Shown in pieces: positions 3,478-36,752 of a stretch of 45,528 bases of DNA (within the stretch, counting starts at the first letter, position 1; each line of letters starts with the position of its first letter). Made by a program: the position numbers and the translations under genes. This DNA comes from a virus: positions 1 through 45,528 of IMG/VR virus record IMGVR_UViG_3300044972_001081; one strand, 5' to 3'. The notes beneath the pieces were generated by a model. It was not told the origin of the DNA and did not search any database. It was given only the letters and a program-made list of their open reading frames with translations.

Positions 3478-3506
3478 TGTGTTTCCTTTTCATGCCTTAT
3501 AGAATC

Positions 3507-3535
3507 AGTATAAACTATTTGAAATCAAATGTCAA
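3507..3535 (-). promoter_or_regulatory. Early promoter cassette, copy 3
   Basis: TTGACA (3535-3530), 17 bases, TATACT (3512-3507), then GATTCTATAAGG. The spacer has the usual ATTTG-N4-CAAAT dyad. It follows directly on the terminator at 3536-3564. Confidence 0.92.
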
Positions 3536-7288: not shown

Positions 7289-7316
7289 GGTCGGTTCCTT
7301 TATACCTTATAGAATC

Positions 7317-7345
7317 AGTATAAACTATTTGAAAGCAAATGTCAA
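7317..7345 (-). promoter_or_regulatory. Early promoter cassette, copy 4
   Basis: TTGACA (7345-7340), a 17-base spacer with ATTTG-CTTT-CAAAT, TATACT (7322-7317), then GATTCTATAAGG. The TGA of the -35 is the stop of the 7342-7611 gene. Confidence 0.93.
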
Positions 7346-9607: not shown

Positions 9608-9637
9608 AGCAGGTTCCTTTATTCACCTTATAGAATC

Positions 9638-9666
9638 AGTATATACTATTTGTAAGCAAATGTCAA
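9638..9666 (-). promoter_or_regulatory. Early promoter cassette, copy 6
   Basis: TTGACA (9666-9661), 17 bases, TATACT (9643-9638), then GATTCTATAAGG. It heads the DNA ligase operon. The 46 bases between it and the gene at 9713 carry only a short in-frame extension of that gene (see findings). Confidence 0.92.
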
Positions 9667-14223: not shown

Positions 14224-15723
14224 TTAATACCTATCTACAATAACGTCTTCGTACTCTGCTGGTTTGAGCTCAGACCGCTCACGAACTTGCTCGAACGTAG
14301 ACTTGTTGAACAGCTCGCCGTTCAGGTATACCAGCTTCAAGAGGTTGTCTTCTGGTGTTACCATTTCCTCTGGTAGAGTTCTGTATCCGCAAGACCCCAA
14401 ACCACATTGGCGTACCAGAGCAAGACGACCCTCTTTAGACTTTTTGCCGTGATCGCCAACTGGATCCTTGCTGAACCCAACCCAAGGACCGTCAGCAATT
14501 CGAATTGCACTGGCCTTCATTGCATATTTCAGAGTATCACGATTCCATGCTTGCAACAGTCCGCCTCCCATACCAAATGCGATATTCTCTAGACTATAAC
14601 CTGCCGCAATGATATTGTCAACAAGTACTTGCAGAGTATGTTCGTTCAAACCGTCACCTTGAATAACTTTGACAATAGGTGATCCGTCTGGACGTTTTGC
14701 AAGAACTTTGTAGCCCTTGCTATTGACAGTGTAGCCAAAGCATTCTGCGAGGATGTCCATGATTTCAATTGGAACGGTCATCGGATCGCCAGAGTCAGGG
14801 CGGACGACCAAAGTGCCACCACTGTCGATCACCAAGTCTTTGAGTTGATTACCCCAAAGTTCACGAACTGCTTCGTAGATGTTGTAACTATCAGACACGC
14901 AGGCATAGATGCTTCCCGCAAAGCTGAACTGCGTAACCATATTGCGGTATGCTTCAACCTCGTTAGCACGACCCCAGCTGGTAACGGTGCTGTGCTCACT
15001 AGCAGGAATGGTCCGAGCAACAGGAGGTGCATCCAGACTAGTAATGTCAGCATCGTAGTATGCATATGCACCAAGAATACCTTCGACTGTATCCGACCCC
15101 CAGAAGTTAACCAAGTGACTCATACCACCAAGAACAGCACTTTCAGTTGAGCTTACACCGCGTCCACCAAAGTCGTGCAGAGCAAACTTGATCACCAAAT
15201 TCATCAACACGTCAACGGGAATGTCAGAGGTTTTCACCAGAGCCTTTGCAATGATCTTCTTGAACTTACGGCTCTTGGTAGCAACAGTAGAAGGATACCA
15301 AACCCCACGCAACAGTGCCATTTCGATGTAGGAGGTCAGCCAGCCAAATCCACTCGTGGTATTTTTGACCTGCACTTGGACGTTATGAGTTTCCATAACG
15401 GTTCCCTCTGGAACGGCAGTGATTTCGAGTGGCAAAAATCCACCAAACTCGTTGAGCACACGTTCCCAACCTTCACGATTGAAGGGAGCGCCGTATACTT
15501 TGAAGATCAGCTCAGCAAAGTTGATGTCCGCCATAGTAATTGGTGTGGTCATGTAATCCATGATCCAAGCCTGTCCACCAAAGAAGGTACTTTTGTCTTC
15601 CCCACCACGAGACTCAATATATGAGCTGATGTGAGTTGTGCCTGGCGGGTATTGTTTAAATTGGGATGGTTTGTAACCGTCAGTGCGCAGAATCGCAGTG
15701 AGTAGGTGTAGAATGTTTTTCAT
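14224..15723 (-). CDS. nadV: Nicotinamide phosphoribosyltransferase (NAMPT)
   Basis: The enzyme makes NMN from nicotinamide and PRPP, the first step of NAD salvage. The 499-residue length fits the family (human NAMPT 491). Family signatures are clear: GRGVSSTES...HLVNFWGSDT, IPASEHSTVTSWG, VVRPDSGDP and GMGGGLLQ. With the NMN adenylyltransferase at 16288 it forms a complete nicotinamide-to-NAD route, as in phage KVP40 and the pathway called NARP2. The unit has its own promoter (15783-15810), a leader hairpin and a GAGGAG ribosome site, and ends at 13942. Confidence 0.95.
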   Translation of the reverse strand: MKNILHLLTAILRTDGYKPSQFKQYPPGTTHISSYIESRGGEDKSTFFGGQAWIMDYMTTPITMADINFAELIFKVYGAPFNREGWERVLNEFGGFLPLEITAVPEGTVMETHNVQVQVKNTTSGFGWLTSYIEMALLRGVWYPSTVATKSRKFKKIIAKALVKTSDIPVDVLMNLVIKFALHDFGGRGVSSTESAVLGGMSHLVNFWGSDTVEGILGAYAYYDADITSLDAPPVARTIPASEHSTVTSWGRANEVEAYRNMVTQFSFAGSIYACVSDSYNIYEAVRELWGNQLKDLVIDSGGTLVVRPDSGDPMTVPIEIMDILAECFGYTVNSKGYKVLAKRPDGSPIVKVIQGDGLNEHTLQVLVDNIIAAGYSLENIAFGMGGGLLQAWNRDTLKYAMKASAIRIADGPWVGFSKDPVGDHGKKSKEGRLALVRQCGLGSCGYRTLPEEMVTPEDNLLKLVYLNGELFNKSTFEQVRERSELKPAEYEDVIVDRY

Positions 15724-16287: not shown

Positions 16288-17352
16288 TTATCCAATGTTA
16301 ATGAAGTTGTCGATGATATGAAAATGATCTTCGAAGAGCTTCTCTTGTTTGACTTGGTTGAATGGAACCCAGAACGCTTTTTCAGCATCATCGGAACCTT
16401 TGACCTTTGGAAGTTCACCAACACCAAGGTCAATCAAGAATGCCTGTGTGATGGTACGACCACGAGATGAGCGGTTCGGAGCATCAAAAGTCTTGGACTC
16501 TTTGATAGAACCCTTGAGAACGGGAACAGGAACCTTGATTTTTGTTTCCTCTTTCAACTCACGGATAGCCCCATCAAGCATAGTTTCATCTTGATTGAGG
16601 AACCCGCCAGGCAGCGCCCATAGTCCTTTTCCTGGCATGTCGCCACGTTTCACGAGAAGGATGTGACCTGACTGAATAACAACAGAGTCAACAGTCATGA
16701 AGGTTGGTGGGAACGGCGCAGATTTCCAAGCTTCCTTGTATTTCTTGACCATATCATATTCTTTAGAAAGAGTATCCCATGCACCGCCAATTTTGGCATT
16801 TTGCATGATAGTATTAGCCATCGCATCATATGAAGGTTTTGGCATTGCGGCAGCAATTTTACTTGGGGACCCATTTTCACCGAACAACATCTTCCGAATA
16901 TCAGTAGCATTGATACCGTTAACATCACCAACTTCGACATGGTCCTTCCAACGAGGAAAGATGTTCAAGTAGTAACTAGTACTGTCCTTCGAATGACCGA
17001 TAAGACCAACATCTTTTGCATCAGGGACGGTTTCATCAACAATCTTCTGGATCGCGTTGACCCACTTGTTGTCGTCATATGGAAAGTCAGAGACTGGAAC
17101 CACTTTGATGCGAGGTGTCTTGTTTCGACCCTGTGCACCGTCATAAGTGAAGTGCTTTGGTTCATTGAAGCAAGCTTCAATCATAGTCTTGCGTTCTTGG
17201 AATGTAAAGGGATTTCGGATATTTCGTGCGGCAAAAGAGGAACCGACTACGATTACTACTTCTTTTGCTTGTTCTAATGCAGCATCAATAACTGCTTTGT
17301 GTCCATTGTGAAACGGTTGGAATCTTCCGATAAAAACTAGTGCATCGCGCAT
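16288..17352 (-). CDS. Bifunctional NMN adenylyltransferase / Nudix hydrolase
   Basis: The N-terminal part (about 1-180) is a nucleotidyltransferase: FIGRFQPFHNGH holds the HxGH motif and NATDIRKML the second signature. It makes NAD from NMN and ATP. The C-terminal part (about 200-350) has an intact Nudix box spread over GGFLNQDE and RELKEE, as in NadM-Nudix proteins that also cleave ADP-ribose. The ATG at 17352 is preferred; the longer reading uses TTG. The ribosome site GGAG lies in the loop of a small A/T stem (GCAAAA/TTTTGC). It is the second enzyme of the NAD salvage pair. Confidence 0.93.
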   Translation of the reverse strand: MRDALVFIGRFQPFHNGHKAVIDAALEQAKEVVIVVGSSFAARNIRNPFTFQERKTMIEACFNEPKHFTYDGAQGRNKTPRIKVVPVSDFPYDDNKWVNAIQKIVDETVPDAKDVGLIGHSKDSTSYYLNIFPRWKDHVEVGDVNGINATDIRKMLFGENGSPSKIAAAMPKPSYDAMANTIMQNAKIGGAWDTLSKEYDMVKKYKEAWKSAPFPPTFMTVDSVVIQSGHILLVKRGDMPGKGLWALPGGFLNQDETMLDGAIRELKEETKIKVPVPVLKGSIKESKTFDAPNRSSRGRTITQAFLIDLGVGELPKVKGSDDAEKAFWVPFNQVKQEKLFEDHFHIIDNFINIG

Positions 17353-17380
17353 TTGCAAAAACTCCTTTTGCTATATTGAG

Positions 17381-18256: not shown

Positions 18257-18284
18257 GTGTTGTTCCTTTTCACCTTATAGAATC

Positions 18285-18313
18285 AGTATAAACTATTCAG
18301 GTGGTACTGTCAA
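18285..18313 (-). promoter_or_regulatory. Early promoter cassette, copy 7
   Basis: TTGACA (18313-18308), 17 bases, TATACT (18290-18285), then GATTCTATAAGG. The spacer resembles copy 2. The TGA of the -35 ends the 18310-18618 gene. Confidence 0.92.
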
Positions 18314-18618
18314 CCCTTCTTTTCACAATCGGGATAAGTACAATGCAAATTATGTAAAGGGCAGTTACCGTTTTCATCTTTGTTTGGACATATTGACTCT
18401 GTTTCTTCTAATAGACTAATGAGTCGTTCAGCACCTGCTTTTGCATCAGCTGCCATTACATCAGGTGAATATCCAAGCAGATATGCAGCAACCATGGCAC
18501 CATAAAGGGAAGCAAGAAGATCATCAGCATCTTTACTATCTTCAAGTTGTTGCAGCCATTCCTGTAGGTGAATGGCTGCATTATTATTGATTTTCTTTAC
18601 TCGTTCATCTTCACTCAT
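18310..18618 (-). CDS. Hypothetical protein with C-terminal Cys/His cluster
   Basis: The 102-residue product has a helical N-terminal two thirds and a tail with CPNKDENGNCPLHNLHC...C, which could bind zinc. It is coupled by ATGA to the Thg1-like gene, so a joint role in RNA processing is possible. No family was recognised. Confidence 0.72.
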   Translation of the reverse strand: MSEDERVKKINNNAAIHLQEWLQQLEDSKDADDLLASLYGAMVAAYLLGYSPDVMAADAKAGAERLISLLEETESICPNKDENGNCPLHNLHCTYPDCEKKG

Positions 18619-19394
18619 TTCACATATCCTACTCTCTGGTCAAGTGTATAGTCACCAAAGAACACAAGATCAAGTTCTTGAATTTTAGTTCGTTTAACAA
18701 GAACATCAGCATCTGGACGTTTATGTTCTGGTATCTTCATAAGTTCTGCTTGAGTCAAATATGACTCAACAGTAACTGGCTTTGCATAAGTGCCATACTT
18801 ATATTTGTTTGGAAGCTCGGCCCAATCAGTAAAATAGTCAGACTTAAGAAGTGCTTTCATTTCTTCACCTGATAGACCGTGCATCTTCGAATGACCCACA
18901 GTCCAACGAAATAGTGATGAAATACTGTTCTTTCGAGCATCTTGAACACGCCACAAAAGTACGTTTGATGCTTCGGCAAGGTCAGGAACAGCCCATGCAC
19001 GGCAGTCAAAGAAAGCAGGTTTATCCATCTTTACACACTCAGAAAGAGTGGCATTAAAATGGAATGTTGCCATAGATGCAAGGATCGAGTTGATCTTTGA
19101 TACTTTACCACCGAACATATATTCAGATGACTTCTCACCTGGTGTGTAGATCAATGTGATTTCGTCCGATTGTGTATACCCAATACTTGCATGAGTGTAC
19201 TTGACAAGGTTCATCATAGTGTTGACCATGACACCACCAAGGATATCATCGAATGGCTTCTTGAAACCTTTTGTGAATTTACTGAAACCTTTGCCGTCGA
19301 TCCGAACACAAAGGATCTTATCAATTGGTACATAAGCTTCTGTATATTCGTGTTCGTGTGCTTTCATCCTGTCGCCAAATTCATCGTTTTTCAT
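18615..19394 (-). CDS. Thg1-like 3'-5' RNA polymerase (tRNA guanylyltransferase family)
   Basis: The 259-residue product has the Thg1 signatures VRIDGKGFSKFTKGF (metal ligand D33) and GYTQSDEITLIY (D77, E78). Thg1 adds G to the 5' end of tRNA(His); Thg1-like proteins repair truncated tRNA 5' ends by templated 3'-5' addition. With the RNA ligase at 1382 and the kinase-like protein at 22302 it suggests a tRNA repair set. The start overlaps the upstream gene by 14 bases. Family call firm, substrate inferred. Confidence 0.93.
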   Translation of the reverse strand: MKNDEFGDRMKAHEHEYTEAYVPIDKILCVRIDGKGFSKFTKGFKKPFDDILGGVMVNTMMNLVKYTHASIGYTQSDEITLIYTPGEKSSEYMFGGKVSKINSILASMATFHFNATLSECVKMDKPAFFDCRAWAVPDLAEASNVLLWRVQDARKNSISSLFRWTVGHSKMHGLSGEEMKALLKSDYFTDWAELPNKYKYGTYAKPVTVESYLTQAELMKIPEHKRPDADVLVKRTKIQELDLVFFGDYTLDQRVGYVK

Positions 19395-23065: not shown

Positions 23066-23091
23066 TTCTGTTTCCTCTACCTTATAGAATC

Positions 23092-23120
23092 AGTATAAAC
23101 TATCTAAGAGATAATGTCAA
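23092..23120 (-). promoter_or_regulatory. Early promoter cassette, copy 8
   Basis: TTGACA (23120-23115), 17 bases, TATACT (23097-23092), then GATTCTATAAGG. The TGA of the -35 ends the mini-ORF at 23117-23161. Confidence 0.92.
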
Positions 23121-23567: not shown

Positions 23568-23594
23568 TTGAGGTTCCTTTCACCTTATAGAATC

Positions 23595-23623
23595 AGTATA
23601 AACTATTCTAATGCAAATGTAAA
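23595..23623 (-). promoter_or_regulatory. Early promoter cassette, copy 9
   Basis: TTTACA (23623-23618), 17 bases, TATACT (23600-23595), then GATTCTATAAGG. It is the only cassette copy with TTTACA at -35. Confidence 0.88.
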
Positions 23624-24236: not shown

Positions 24237-24923
24237 TTATTCTTGAGTTTCTTTTGCTTTTCGTCTTGATTTAAATTTTGGTTTCTCTTCGGGTTCTTTA
24301 TCAACTTCTTCAGTTGATTCTTTATTCTTTTCTTTTTCTTCTTCTGCATCCAGAATTTCTTGTCTAGACTTAAGTCTTTTAATTACATCAGTCCCATCCA
24401 TCCAGATGTCTTTGTTTTCTAGCATTGATGTAATTTCTTCGTCGGTAAGAAAATGCTTGTATATATCACGTAATAGATTTTCAGACCATGCACGTTCGTG
24501 TTTCAGCTGGTCAAACATTTCACCACCTTTACCGAATACACCACTTGAATAGTTATGGAACATAAACATAGAATGTTCGGATATTTCAAATGTTTCACCA
24601 CAGAGCATAATCATTGTTGCAGCTGAGGCACATAGACCTTCAACTGAAATAACTATATTTGCTGATGTTTCTCTCAATGCTCGCATAAATTGAATTGCTG
24701 TAAATACATCGCCACCATGCGAGTTGACATATATTTTAATTACATCATTTTCTCCAGCGTGACGAATAGTATCAAACCATTGAATGTAATTTTCCGAAGA
24801 TTCAATATCTCCACTCAAATAAAATTCGTGGATATTTACCAATTGCTTATGGAATGTTCTATCGTCTTGTTTTACACCTTTACCTAGTAAGATGTCCATA
24901 AGATCTAATTTATTGGCTTTCAA
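24237..24923 (-). CDS. ClpP-like serine protease
   Basis: The 228-residue product has the ClpP fold signatures YVNSHGGDVFTAIQFM, GLCASAATMI with catalytic S100, MFMFHNYSSG with H123, and a likely acid at D172 (NKDIWMDG). The tail (about 190-228) is a Lys/Glu-rich extension not found in ClpP. It may process virion proteins or host targets. The start is TTG at 24923, overlapping the upstream TGA, supported by AAGGAG at the right distance; the next ATG is 24 bases further in. Confidence 0.87.
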   Translation of the reverse strand: MKANKLDLMDILLGKGVKQDDRTFHKQLVNIHEFYLSGDIESSENYIQWFDTIRHAGENDVIKIYVNSHGGDVFTAIQFMRALRETSANIVISVEGLCASAATMIMLCGETFEISEHSMFMFHNYSSGVFGKGGEMFDQLKHERAWSENLLRDIYKHFLTDEEITSMLENKDIWMDGTDVIKRLKSRQEILDAEEEKEKNKESTEEVDKEPEEKPKFKSRRKAKETQE

Positions 24924-30221: not shown

Positions 30222-30247
30222 TGAGGTTCCTTTCACCTTATAGAATC

Positions 30248-30276
30248 AGTATATACTATTTGAAATGAAATGTCAA
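30248..30276 (-). promoter_or_regulatory. Early promoter cassette, copy 10
   Basis: TTGACA (30276-30271), 17 bases, TATACT (30253-30248), then GATTCTATAAGG. Confidence 0.92.
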
Positions 30277-32155: not shown

Positions 32156-32186
32156 GTTAGGTTCCTCTGTGTTACCTTATAGAATC

Positions 32187-32215
32187 AGTATAAACTATTT
32201 AAAAGCATTTGTCAA
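32187..32215 (-). promoter_or_regulatory. Early promoter cassette, copy 11
   Basis: TTGACA (32215-32210), 17 bases, TATACT (32192-32187), then GATTCTATAAGG. The TGA of the -35 ends the 32212-32373 gene. Confidence 0.93.
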
Positions 32216-32457: not shown

Positions 32458-33477
32458 TTAAGCTTCACATGCAGCGCACCCAGCGGCTGTTACTCTTTTT
32501 CTGGTCAATGCTTGGGCGGCCGACATTGAGTAACTGTAATACAAGCTCTTGACACCCATTTCCCATGCATATAGATAAAGTGCATTTATTTCTTTTACAG
32601 GCATATCTGGATCAACCATCAAGTTCAAACTTTGACCTTGGTCAATGTATTGTTGACGAACACCAGCGTGATCAATAATAGTGTAAGGGTTAATTTCAGC
32701 AAAGGTCTTGAATACTTCTTTTTCATTTGGAGACAAGAAGTCTAGATGTTGGATTGAACCATCTGCATTTTTAATTGTTTCCCATACCTCTGTTGTGTTT
32801 TTACCTTTTTCTTCTAGCAATTCCTGAAGGTAAGGATTTTTAATAGTCACTTTCATCTTTGCAAGATCTTTGACATAGCAATTAGAGAACTCAGGCTCGA
32901 TAGACTGACTTACCTGTCCTAGAATAAAACTACTAGATTTAGTAGGTGCAATTGCCATGGTTGTAGTATTACGCATACCATAACCCTTAAGTAATGGTGG
33001 TTCACCTAGTTTTATTGCAAGTTCACGTGATGCAGCGTGTGAACGTTCCTGTAATGTTTTTGCAATTTCCATGTTCTTCTTTGCTGCTTCTTTAGATTCA
33101 AAACCAATCATATTAGATTGAAGATATGAATGCCAACCAAGAATACCAACACCGATTGCACGATGATTAATTGCAAATTCACGTGCACGCTTCAGATATT
33201 CTTGACCTTCAGCTTTACGGATAAACTCTTCACAAACTGTATCAAGGAACATTGTCATAACTTCGATAGCGTCTGTTTCAATAATCTCATCCCAGTGAAG
33301 AGCATTAATTGATGAAAGGACACAAGTAAAAGTTTCAGTGACAGACGACGGAAGTGCAATTTCGATACAATTATGTACCAATATATCGTTGGCAAAAAAA
33401 GATGATGTTTCCGGAACTGTTATATCGTACACGGGTATTTCTTCATCATAATCAATGTATTCTATTCTTATACCCAA
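32458..33477 (-). CDS. nrdA: Ribonucleotide reductase alpha, C-terminal part, with split-intein C half
   Basis: Residues 1-36 are the C half of an intein (VYDITVPETSSFFANDILVHN, ending His-Asn). Residue C37 is the first extein residue and corresponds to the radical-carrying active-site cysteine (E. coli C439); E39 follows as in the family. The remaining 303 residues complete NrdA, including SLYYSYS (radical-transfer Tyr pair) and the C-terminal GCAACEA redox cysteines. The start is TTG at 33477, behind AAAGGAAA inside the end of the endonuclease gene. Trans-splicing with the 34387 gene would give a 560-residue NrdA. Confidence 0.93.
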   Translation of the reverse strand: MGIRIEYIDYDEEIPVYDITVPETSSFFANDILVHNCIEIALPSSVTETFTCVLSSINALHWDEIIETDAIEVMTMFLDTVCEEFIRKAEGQEYLKRAREFAINHRAIGVGILGWHSYLQSNMIGFESKEAAKKNMEIAKTLQERSHAASRELAIKLGEPPLLKGYGMRNTTTMAIAPTKSSSFILGQVSQSIEPEFSNCYVKDLAKMKVTIKNPYLQELLEEKGKNTTEVWETIKNADGSIQHLDFLSPNEKEVFKTFAEINPYTIIDHAGVRQQYIDQGQSLNLMVDPDMPVKEINALYLYAWEMGVKSLYYSYSMSAAQALTRKRVTAAGCAACEA

Positions 33478-34316
33478 TTTTTAGTTTCCTTTTTTGTAAA
33501 TTGTCTCCATTCGTTTGAATGGAAGCTGTTATATTTTTCTAAAGTTATTCCATCTTTTTCGGAACATTTTATTAATTCATCTACCATACCCCAAAATCCT
33601 CTATTTGAAAATCTAAACATTTTCCAATGTTTTAGATGAGGTAAATTATAGTAAACAGAATGTTGAATCCAAAAACTACCATTAACCAGTTTATTGTACT
33701 TATAGCAACAATTTTTATAAGATTCTAATAAATCTGTGTCGGAATATTTGCTATTTTGATTAGCATATCCTAGACTCTCGTTACTTCTTATTTTATTCTG
33801 TTCAGCAGTTTTCTTTAATCCTTTAGTAATATGAACCCATTCGCCATTTAAAACCTTTGGATCATTCATTGATACTATACCCAATCTTTCGCCAGTAAGT
33901 AGATTTTTTGCTGGCATAGTTCCAGTTTTACCTTTACTTATAGCTTTATTTGTTTGTATTTTATATTTTTCATATATTCTTGAACTATAGTTATATACAG
34001 ACCTTTTATTATTTACAGGGCCGCCATTTAAAAACATTTTTAATGAAAGATAGCAGCGATATTCCCATTTTGTATTATTCCATATCTTACAAAGTATTAA
34101 ATGTGCTATAAAATGTTCTCTTGGAGTAAGATATGTAATATTACCTACGTGCTCGCCATCACCTTCATATATTCCATCATTATGACGAAGTTTTCTTTTA
34201 TTATTTTTATAAAAAAATACCGGTACTATATGATGTTTTTCCAAACTACCGCCCCGAATTTTTTTCCTTCTTATACCTCGTTGGCACATATTTTGGTATA
34301 TTTTTTCATAATTCAT
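33468..34316 (-). CDS. HNH homing endonuclease between the nrdA halves
   Basis: The 282-residue product has an HNH core: EKHHIVPVFF (H28, H29), GNITYLTPREHFIAH (N59, H68, H72). A Lys/Gly-rich NUMOD-like part (ISKGKTGTMPAKN...) and a C-terminal DNA-binding part follow. It should cut nrdA lacking the insertion and drive its own spread. The gene lies exactly in the break of the split intein, overlaps the start of nrdA-C by 10 bases, and is much more AT-rich than its neighbours. Translation is probably limited to late infection by the element at 34319-34365. Confidence 0.88.
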   Translation of the reverse strand: MNYEKIYQNMCQRGIRRKKIRGGSLEKHHIVPVFFYKNNKRKLRHNDGIYEGDGEHVGNITYLTPREHFIAHLILCKIWNNTKWEYRCYLSLKMFLNGGPVNNKRSVYNYSSRIYEKYKIQTNKAISKGKTGTMPAKNLLTGERLGIVSMNDPKVLNGEWVHITKGLKKTAEQNKIRSNESLGYANQNSKYSDTDLLESYKNCCYKYNKLVNGSFWIQHSVYYNLPHLKHWKMFRFSNRGFWGMVDELIKCSEKDGITLEKYNSFHSNEWRQFTKKETKNWV

Positions 34317-34318
34317 GC

Positions 34319-34365
34319 AGTAAAATCTCCTTTTTATTTTTATTTATAATAAGGGAGATTTCACT
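34319..34365 (-). promoter_or_regulatory. Hairpin hiding the endonuclease ribosome site
   Basis: AGTGAAATCTCC (34365-34354) pairs with GGAGATTTTACT (34330-34319), 12 bp with one G-U, closing a 23-base loop. The second arm holds the GGAG of the endonuclease. Messages read through from nrdA would fold and block translation; late transcripts starting in the loop would not. Confidence 0.82.
34341..34348 (-). promoter_or_regulatory. T4-type late promoter in the hairpin loop
   Basis: Exact TATAAATA on the minus strand. A start about 6 bases downstream would lie before the GGAG arm but after the first arm. Confidence 0.8.
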
Positions 34366-34386
34366 ACATTATAGAGTGTTTAGAGA

Positions 34387-35475
34387 TTATTCACCTATTA
34401 GAAGTTCATCATCTTCTGTAAGATCTTTAGCTTCTACCCAACCTCTGTTTTGAGTAAAGATTTTATGATCTGGTGTGCACTCAACAACTTTGCCTGTTTT
34501 ATCATCAGTAATACGTATCATTTTTTTAGTAGAACCAGTTTGGGCGGCCGCAGTAACTTTACAGAAACCTTTTTCTGTTTTTACTTTAGTCTCAGCTGGT
34601 ATTCCACCTATTGACCAAAGTTTAACAAATGTTTCTATATCTATTGTTTGTGGTTCTTTTTCAAACGGAAACCACACTGTCATAATACTATCACCACGTA
34701 GACACATGTTTGACGCATGGATCTTCATCTTTTTATCTTTATAGACTTGAGGCTTGTTATTGTTAACATTATCACCAAATAGGATATAAGGATACCCAAT
34801 CTCTGATCTACGCTGAAGTACTTTTGCCCAGATTCGGCGCTTCTCTGCATCACCTTTTTTCATTGACTCTATAAATGAGTCTGAAACAACAATACCAGTA
34901 GTTAGTCCCTGAATTGGATTTCCTTCGGTTCCAATATCTAAAAACTCGTCGGCATCTGGATGATCAATATCTTGATATGCAGCAAAGAAACCTCTGCGAA
35001 CTGAACCTTGTGAAACTACTGATGCGAGTGTATCATATAGTTGCATAAAGTGGACGGAACCTGATGATGCGCCGGAATCTGTAATATTAGCCCCACGGTG
35101 ACGGACTGCACCGAAGTAACCGGAACAACCACCACCATTTTTCATTAACATACCGTTTTCTGCAACGCCAAAAAGAATTGATTCCATATTATCATCAATA
35201 TAAGAGCCAAAGCAAGAAACTGGTAAACCACGCTTCTTACCATAATTAGCCCAAACAGGTGATGAGAGAGAATAGAAACCACGTGACATATAATCATAAA
35301 ATTTGTCTGCATATCCAGGAATACCTAGATATTTTTCTGCTGTTGCGGCGATCTCTCTAATTCGACTTTCTGCAGTTTCACCCGCATCTTCATTGATGTA
35401 GCCCCTTGAAAGAAACTTTCGTGAGTCTTCATTCAACCAATAAAATTTTTCGTACGTCTTTGTTACCTCTATCAA
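34387..35475 (-). CDS. nrdA: Ribonucleotide reductase alpha, N-terminal part, with split-intein N half
   Basis: Residues 1-257 are the class I NrdA core, with redox cysteine C88 (PVSCFGSY), GGGCSGYFGAVR and the SNM just before the active-site cysteine position. Residue C258 begins the intein N half (105 residues), with CTPDHKIFT as block B. No ATP cone is present; it is on NrdB instead. The start is TTG at 35475, overlapping the nrdB stop, with GGAGGATG upstream. The protein is inactive unless spliced to the 32458 product. Confidence 0.93.
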   Translation of the reverse strand: MIEVTKTYEKFYWLNEDSRKFLSRGYINEDAGETAESRIREIAATAEKYLGIPGYADKFYDYMSRGFYSLSSPVWANYGKKRGLPVSCFGSYIDDNMESILFGVAENGMLMKNGGGCSGYFGAVRHRGANITDSGASSGSVHFMQLYDTLASVVSQGSVRRGFFAAYQDIDHPDADEFLDIGTEGNPIQGLTTGIVVSDSFIESMKKGDAEKRRIWAKVLQRRSEIGYPYILFGDNVNNNKPQVYKDKKMKIHASNMCLRGDSIMTVWFPFEKEPQTIDIETFVKLWSIGGIPAETKVKTEKGFCKVTAAAQTGSTKKMIRITDDKTGKVVECTPDHKIFTQNRGWVEAKDLTEDDELLIGE

Positions 35476-36752
35476 AATAGATCATCCTCCGTAAATGCTT
35501 TTGTTTTCTTTGAATATGCTGTGCTTCTCTTAACAAAGAAGTCAACATTTTTTGTACTTAAAATTTCTTCAACAAACCAATCTGTGCTTGAAACTGCAAC
35601 TTGATCTACTTCATAAATTGGTTTAATATCAATTGCTTGTAGTGATTGGTTGAAACGATGCTTTAGAAATTCCTTGACGGTCTCTTTTGGAAGGAAGTCT
35701 AGATCTGAATCACCATAGATCCAATCTACAATCATGGACTCTGCCTTATATGCTTCTTTGCAGAGTCGATTTACCTCTGAAATTGTGTCTTTGGTCCACC
35801 AATCTGGATTTTCAGCTTTGATAATGTTAACAAGTTCAAAACCGAATCTAGCATGAATGTCTTCTTCTTTTGAAGTCGCTTCCACTGCATTAGAGATGCC
35901 TTTCAACATATTCTTATGCTTGTTGAAAGCCATCATGATTAGAAATTGCGAGAATAATGAAACATTTTCTACAAACATAGAAAATAGGACAATATTGTGG
36001 AAGTAATCTTTATCATCGACTGGGTTCTGAAGAGCTTGTTCTAGGTATGCAATACGCTTTTTTATTGCAGGAACATCTACTATAGTTTCAAACTCTTCAT
36101 TTAAACCCATGATTTCAATGAGATTTGAATAAGCATCGGCATGGCGAACTTCAGATTCTGCAAATGTTGCGCCGACTGCTTGTACTTCTGGTTTCTTTAG
36201 TCTATCACCGACTTTACCCCAGAATGCTTTGACTTGAACTTCTATTTGTGAAATTGCAAGCATTGCTTTCTTTACAATTTCTACTTCTTCTTTTGTCATT
36301 CTTACTTTCATGTCTTGGATATCAGATGAGTAATTAAATTCTGTATGAACCCAATATGAATGACGGATAGCATCTTTATATTCGTCTAGTTGTGGATACT
36401 CGTAAGGTTTTAAATTAGTTCTTTTACGAAAAATATCTGGCATGTTATTATGGCGATATACAATGTATTCTCTTGCCAGATCGTGTAGGCCCATGTCCAT
36501 TATTACATTTTCAACGGTTCTATGAACTGTATCGACACTTACAATAACATCATTTACTGCACTTTTATTTAAAATATCTGTTACTTCTGTTGCCACTTCT
36601 TCTGGCATTGTTTTACTTCTGATACCGATGGACTTCATTGCTTTAGATACAGCAGTGCTGATCTTGTCTTTGTCATAAACTTCTGTAGTCCCGTTTCGTT
36701 TGGTAACGTAATTTACTGTCTTAGAATGTTCGTTTGTTGAACTATCTAACAT
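35472..36752 (-). CDS. nrdB: Ribonucleotide reductase beta with N-terminal ATP cone
   Basis: NrdB supplies the radical for dNTP synthesis. In this 426-residue protein an ATP cone (about 11-100, VTKRNGTTEVYDKDKI) is fused ahead of the ferritin-like domain. Metal ligands and radical site: E138, E201, H204, Tyr Y208 (EVRHADAY), E262, E297 and H300. The radical tyrosine is present, as in class Ia. Usual NrdB is about 375 residues, the extra length being the cone. The placement of the cone on NrdB rather than NrdA is known in some bacteria and phages but uncommon. The leader has AAAGGG. Confidence 0.95.
   Translation of the reverse strand: MLDSSTNEHSKTVNYVTKRNGTTEVYDKDKISTAVSKAMKSIGIRSKTMPEEVATEVTDILNKSAVNDVIVSVDTVHRTVENVIMDMGLHDLAREYIVYRHNNMPDIFRKRTNLKPYEYPQLDEYKDAIRHSYWVHTEFNYSSDIQDMKVRMTKEEVEIVKKAMLAISQIEVQVKAFWGKVGDRLKKPEVQAVGATFAESEVRHADAYSNLIEIMGLNEEFETIVDVPAIKKRIAYLEQALQNPVDDKDYFHNIVLFSMFVENVSLFSQFLIMMAFNKHKNMLKGISNAVEATSKEEDIHARFGFELVNIIKAENPDWWTKDTISEVNRLCKEAYKAESMIVDWIYGDSDLDFLPKETVKEFLKHRFNQSLQAIDIKPIYEVDQVAVSSTDWFVEEILSTKNVDFFVKRSTAYSKKTKAFTEDDLF

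Follow-up and report, generated by a model that had tools for sequence, protein, structure and literature searches.

The mode of operation of T4 late promoters and of the switches that control I-TevI and mobE is established knowledge, and in T4 late transcription starts about 6 nt after TATAAATA. Hairpins combined with a late promoter are already known for I-TevI, segB, and Aeh1 mobE (PMC2988022, PMC3014915). The last of these is an HNH endonuclease gene residing in nrdA, according to the accounts of Gibb & Edgell 2007 and 2009 relayed in the same two reports; I-TevI, in addition, has an operator that shows 15/20 identity to its homing site, overlaps the late promoter, and undergoes about 100-fold less cutting (PMC2988022). 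Fractured genes in which split inteins are associated with endonucleases were described by Dassa et al. 2009, as relayed in PMC3653736 and PMC7090010. The locus analysed here is read as a late-release translational switch of the class to which I-TevI, mobE, and gene e belong, in which a hairpin would block translation early and a late start at TATAAATA would relieve the block, and this reading is considered highly probable.

The locus lies in a window of 45,528 nt, the whole stretch of DNA that was analysed, whose source is an uncultured phage of the T4 superfamily; two longer contigs of 115 kb (G001) and 137 kb (G002) are 100% identical to the window across 10.8 kb around the locus. The genes of interest are on the minus strand in the order thyA, nrdB, N-terminal half of nrdA, HNH endonuclease, and C-terminal half of nrdA. 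In particular, nrdB (35472-36752; Pfam Ribonuc_red_sm, 1.1e-56) overlaps the start of nrdA, whose 5' half (34387-35475; Pfam Ribonuc_red_lgC, 2.6e-32) comprises the N-extein and the N half of a split intein (34704-34390), the latter with an Intein_splicing match (1.3e-5) under Pfam's curated score cut-off. The C half of the split intein and the 3' half of nrdA (C-extein), recognised by Pfam search and by sequence, form an ORF at 32458-33477 with its own ribosome-binding site (RBS), AAAGGAAA, and a TTG start within the 3' end of the HNH gene. The two intein halves are separate ORFs flanking the endonuclease gene, as in a fractured gene, and the insertion point is directly 5' of the catalytic cysteine codon. 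This codon opens the C-extein, whose initial 20 nt (TGTATCGAAATTGCACTTCC, 33350-33369, minus strand) presumably form the right half of the homing site. The endonuclease (33468-34316, minus strand; 282 aa with the pattern HHIVP...N...H) matches phrog_655 (E 1.4e-16) and is a homologue of Aeh1 mobE and T4 MobB; the Pfam search gave no match for the protein itself, its relatives L148 and L149 match Pfam HNH, and none of its relatives was found in bacterial genomes. The original prediction of an HNH enzyme in a split-intein locus is confirmed, the locus being an nrdA cassette. Elsewhere in the window, genes for a nicotinamide phosphoribosyl transferase and a cytidyltransferase/nudix protein (14224-15723 and 16288-17358) indicate possible NAD salvage, and others encode a tRNA-His guanylyltransferase (18615-19394) and a ClpP-like protease (24237-24923).

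The 12-bp stem with one G-U pair between AGTGAAATCTCC (34365-34354, minus strand) and GGAGATTTTACT (34330-34319), on which the prediction was built, is present as described, and the 47-nt stretch by itself folds at -14.8 kcal/mol (z = -4.98; 0/200 shuffles as good). The stem is in fact longer, with ATGT (34369-34366) pairing to GCAT (34318-34315) to give 16 bp with two G-U pairs; this hairpin reaches -22.6 kcal/mol (z = -7.32; again 0/200 shuffles as good), the same structure is obtained when 121 nt of context are folded, and the leader is the third most stable among the 215 called gene leaders in G002. The 3' arm, GGAGATTTTACTGCAT (34315-34330, minus strand), holds the GGAG ribosome site (34330-34327), as had been claimed, and includes the paired A and U of the start codon, the distance between the end of GGAG and the ATG (34316) being 10 nt; in the predicted fold of the long transcript, both the Shine-Dalgarno (SD) sequence and the AUG are sequestered by the stem. 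The 5' arm, ATGTAGTGAAATCTCC (34354-34369, minus strand), is entirely missing from the predicted late transcript, which would start at about 34336 and, with a mere -2.6 kcal/mol, is no more stable than its shuffled versions, leaving the RBS open; this agrees with the expectation that a late RNA sheds the first arm and frees the GGAG. The hairpin lies 17 nt past the stop codon of the nrdA 5' half and is very stable, features that would also suit a transcription terminator or an RNA-processing site between this half and the nuclease gene; such a role is very improbable, since no U-run follows the stem (GCAUGAAUUAUG), a terminator scan returned none at the hairpin, and the 3' half of nrdA, located downstream, needs transcription.

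The loop contains, at 34348-34341 (minus strand) and between the arms, the exact octamer TATAAATA of T4-type late promoters that had been noticed there. Its number in the window is not raised (5 found versus 4.06 expected), and the promoter role is assigned because of its position before genes in G002, where 14 of 23 exact copies are located 22-52 bp before called ORFs (7 for the best anagram); the genes tested downstream include those of the tail sheath, head protease, scaffold, and major head (capsid) protein. In G003, a colinear sister phage, 26 of 54 copies precede genes, and its genome encodes the late sigma factor gp55 (3.5e-64) and the clamp gp45 (4.8e-72); gp55 was not found in G002 by T4 phmmer or by profile, because this contig is a fragment that ends before the matching genome region, present in G003. 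These positions support the view that TATAAATA would behave as a late promoter in the window phage. A repeated early-type promoter, TTGACA-N17-TATACTGATTCTATAAGGT, has about 23 copies at 37-98 kb of G002 and occurs on the minus strand of the window at 124-145, 2706-2727, 3494-3515, 7304-7325, 9625-9646, 18272-18293, 23079-23100, 23582-23603, 30235-30256, and 32174-32195; it is absent from 98-137 kb of G002, including the region upstream of nrdA, and no strong early promoter was detected just upstream of nrdA.

Comparable arrangements were observed at other genes of these phages. A second homing endonuclease of G002 (L021, 135049-135951) is preceded by TATAAATA at a distance of 36 bp, and its SD is covered by a short inverted repeat (GGTATC/GATACC). 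In G003, other homing endonucleases (L223, L224, and L232; 2991-3638, 21804-22562, and 185699-186316) have TATAAATA and strong hairpins at the start region, and a gene with a protease-like PHROG match (L223, 6589-7386) shows a 14-bp SD hairpin whose 5' arm is overlapped by TATAAATA. Viral contigs were also scanned for the pattern CTCC..TATAAATA..GGAG, and among the matches listed the stems are mostly weak; these matches include the same device before a prohead-protease-like gene (L095, recognised by eye) and before others, and therefore the device is not exclusive to endonucleases.

A profile built from the nucleases of the window and of Yersinia phage TG1 identified relatives within nrdA split inteins in L145, L146, TG1, L148, L149, L150/151, and L174/175. 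With the intein C half as query, 80 loci were retrieved at the same nrdA site, mostly split with an endonuclease gene in between, and the layout is found in dozens of phage contigs; among the loci that could be typed, the nucleases are HNH in 25 and GIY-YIG in 41, the latter identity being backed by PHROGs for three representatives. When near-identical sequences are removed, 13 of 23 leaders contain an exact TATAAATA enclosed by a hairpin that extends to the start region, and in most of these 13 the start region is open in the predicted late RNA. Hairpins with variant octamers occur in L148 (GATAAATA) and in Aeh1; among the leaders folded, L174 has only a weak hairpin, and L149 and L316 have none, so that some cassettes are without part of the device. 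The 3' arm of the GIY-YIG leaders carries no good SD, and what is hidden there is therefore the start region, not a classic SD. That a hairpin should have arisen by chance around an equally fortuitous TATAAATA within an AT-rich gap is in line with the count of the octamer in the window, which equals chance; the z of -7.3 for the hairpin and the positioning of TATAAATA before late genes reduce this possibility to almost nothing, and the repetition of the layout in many different leaders already contradicts it.

The related 208-kb phage L252 has the same nrdA mini-intein in contiguous form and without an endonuclease and is the empty state of the cassette. In the alignment, the stop codon, the hairpin, the promoter, and the HNH gene all correspond to additional DNA in the window, and the control leader is therefore part of the mobile cassette. 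A decayed cassette was seen in L253 around 3890, where the HNH gene is down to 15 codons and the hairpin is retained with a TTCG loop and without the late promoter.

The leader also contains a copy of part of the homing site, a feature that the original prediction had overlooked. The putative operator TGTAGTGAAATCTCCCTTATTATA (34345-34368, minus strand) adjoins and overlaps the late promoter and shares 13/20 positions with the C-extein site of the window itself, with a single-locus p of about 0.01-0.04 (matrix p = 0.013). The 5' arm of the HNH leaders, TGTAGTGAAAT, keeps its sequence also in leaders that leave it unpaired and resembles the nrdA codons to the right of the insertion point (Cys-x-Glu-Ile). 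The similarity was evaluated by a matrix derived from 52 distinct C-exteins, with upstream regions from the same phages, selected by RBS, as background and with permuted controls, which replaced an ungapped local score against each leader's own site. By this matrix, 20/20 leaders have p < 0.05 (19/20 with the matrix's first copy) in a set from which L262 (truncated ORF), L274 (other nuclease), and Aeh1 (other insertion site) had been dropped after failing the first matrix test; the statistic is 215 versus 33 +/- 12 for permuted matrices (maximum 87.5), and control windows taken from the C-extein from +12 on, the intein, and the N-extein gave few or no matches. The mimic covers the right half only of the homing site, roughly the initial 20 nt of the C-extein, and is in sense orientation in most HNH leaders; in HNH leaders with TATAAATA it mostly constitutes the 5' arm, beside the promoter, and in GIY-YIG leaders it is located in the 3' arm. 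Mimicry limited to the right half is consistent with binding and repression without efficient cutting, and the mimic probably functions as an operator.

The mimic could also be a relic, a piece of nrdA that was copied as the endonuclease entered the intein, beside a hairpin and a late promoter that still work. This origin would be in keeping with the copying of only those first 20 nt or so in sense orientation and with the fact that leaders do not track their own site, which they match no better than other sites (p = 0.13); however, the location of the mimic in the 5' arm of HNH leaders but in the 3' arm of GIY-YIG leaders and its persistence in highly divergent cassettes are not explained by simple inheritance, and a relic is considered rather unlikely. 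Among other cassettes, L186 and L188 have a helicase-like gene broken by a split intein that hosts an HNH gene; a hairpin takes up the SD and AUG of this HNH gene, and neither TATAAATA nor a homing-site mimic accompanies it, the search for the mimic at the fractured helicase of L186 being negative; nrdA split inteins carrying a different, resolvase-like nuclease were observed in L274, L277, and L279, with neither hairpin nor mimic in the leader tested.

The pairing itself was followed in alignments of the separate hairpin arms, which MAFFT misaligned on whole leaders. In the register anchored on the AUG, pairing is kept in 47/47 cells of the window, L145, and L146, although four of the pairs differ in both partners, and registers slid by 1-3 are 31-55% paired; compensating base changes in related phages, proposed as a check of the stem, are thus seen, in a covariation of limited weight that comes from three sequences and is equalled in 28/500 shuffles. 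The imperfect pairs are, on the mRNA strand, G-T in 21 cases and A-C in 5 (p = 0.0025, an optimistic value because the leaders are mutually related), an excess that favours RNA pairing over a DNA palindrome. The GIY-YIG leaders are 95% paired with little change and hence give weak evidence of covariation. If the element acted at the DNA level only, the inverted repeat would serve the nuclease or some other factor as an operator or as a palindrome to bind, and pairing in the RNA would be a side effect. This would account for a mimic that is found more widely than the exact combination of hairpin and promoter, including leaders in which one of the two is missing; it is nevertheless improbable, considering the prevalence of G-T over A-C at unmatched positions, the compensating changes, the extension of the stems into SD and AUG, and the variation of the 3' arm among cassettes whose 5' arm is conserved.

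Under the late-release switch, read-through messages from nrdB-nrdA would contain both arms earlier in infection and form the 16-bp hairpin masking SD and AUG, so that the nuclease would not be made while NrdA is. A late RNA polymerase of the gp55/gp45 type would initiate at TATAAATA in the loop, and the short late RNA, devoid of the 5' arm, would be translated. The same 5' arm, beside the promoter, would also mimic in the DNA the right half of the homing site in nrdA; the nuclease, once made, would bind the mimic and repress its own late promoter, with no cutting because the left half of the homing site is not copied. The anatomy, folding, promoter positions, recurrence, compensating changes, and homing-site similarity were computed here; what we infer for the window phage is the time of expression, the block of translation, the late start, and the binding and repression by the nuclease. 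The riboregulated late expression of the homing endonuclease that had been proposed is supported by sequence, folding, promoter position, and recurrence. The proposal left it between convergent and transferred control, and the two enzyme families differ in this respect: conservation of the 5' arm within HNH cassettes suggests shared descent, and the equivalent leader on GIY-YIG enzymes suggests convergence or enzyme swapping. The chances are about even that an element of ~24 nt in split-intein nrdA combines a promoter-adjacent operator with an early-blocking RNA arm and was acquired separately by HNH and GIY-YIG enzymes.

These data extend the layered control of T4 homing endonucleases to split-intein fractured genes, mostly in phages far from T4, and to two unrelated nuclease families; to judge from the recurrence, selfish genes in essential phage genes would generally need a nuclease that is expressed late and limits itself. 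The many natural variants can be used to examine how operator, promoter, and RNA switch are connected, and the leader copy of the homing site is a signature that may help to predict the targets of uncharacterised homing endonucleases.

As regards the known systems, the nearest precedent is Aeh1 mobE rather than I-TevI, to which the original prediction had compared the locus. In Aeh1, as in the window, an HNH gene splits nrdA, the RBS hairpin contains a late promoter (TCTAAATA), and the nuclease is homologous (phmmer 7e-8); unlike in the window, there is no intein, the insertion lies some codons past the catalytic Cys, and no mimic of the window-type homing site was found in the leader. The window cassette was also considered as mobE proper, a designation that was rejected as its insertion is inside the intein before the Cys codon and not at the Aeh1 site. 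The T4 I-TevI leader shares with the window the RBS hairpin, the releasing late promoter, and a homing-site-like operator on the promoter, but I-TevI is a GIY-YIG enzyme of the td group I intron, not of a split intein, and in the HNH leaders described here the 5' arm is formed by the mimic itself. The fractured genes of Dassa et al. 2009, as far as they are presented in PMC3653736 and PMC7090010, include an nrdA interrupted within the intein, whose halves flank an endonuclease gene, as in the window, and to these the present cassette adds a regulatory leader with hairpin, late promoter, and mimic. The nrdA-HNH locus of Yersinia phage TG1 (KP202158) has the same split intein, an HNH gene, a hairpin, and an exact TATAAATA, and differs from the window in its stem sequence and in belonging to a Tevenvirinae phage; its deposited annotation names the HNH gene and does not name the intein or the hairpin-promoter device. 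A literature search covering part of the journals found no paper joining split intein, nrdA, and hairpin. What is new here, in comparison with these systems, is a known type of control placed on a split-intein cassette, its occurrence with two nuclease families, and the presence of a homing-site mimic within the hairpin.
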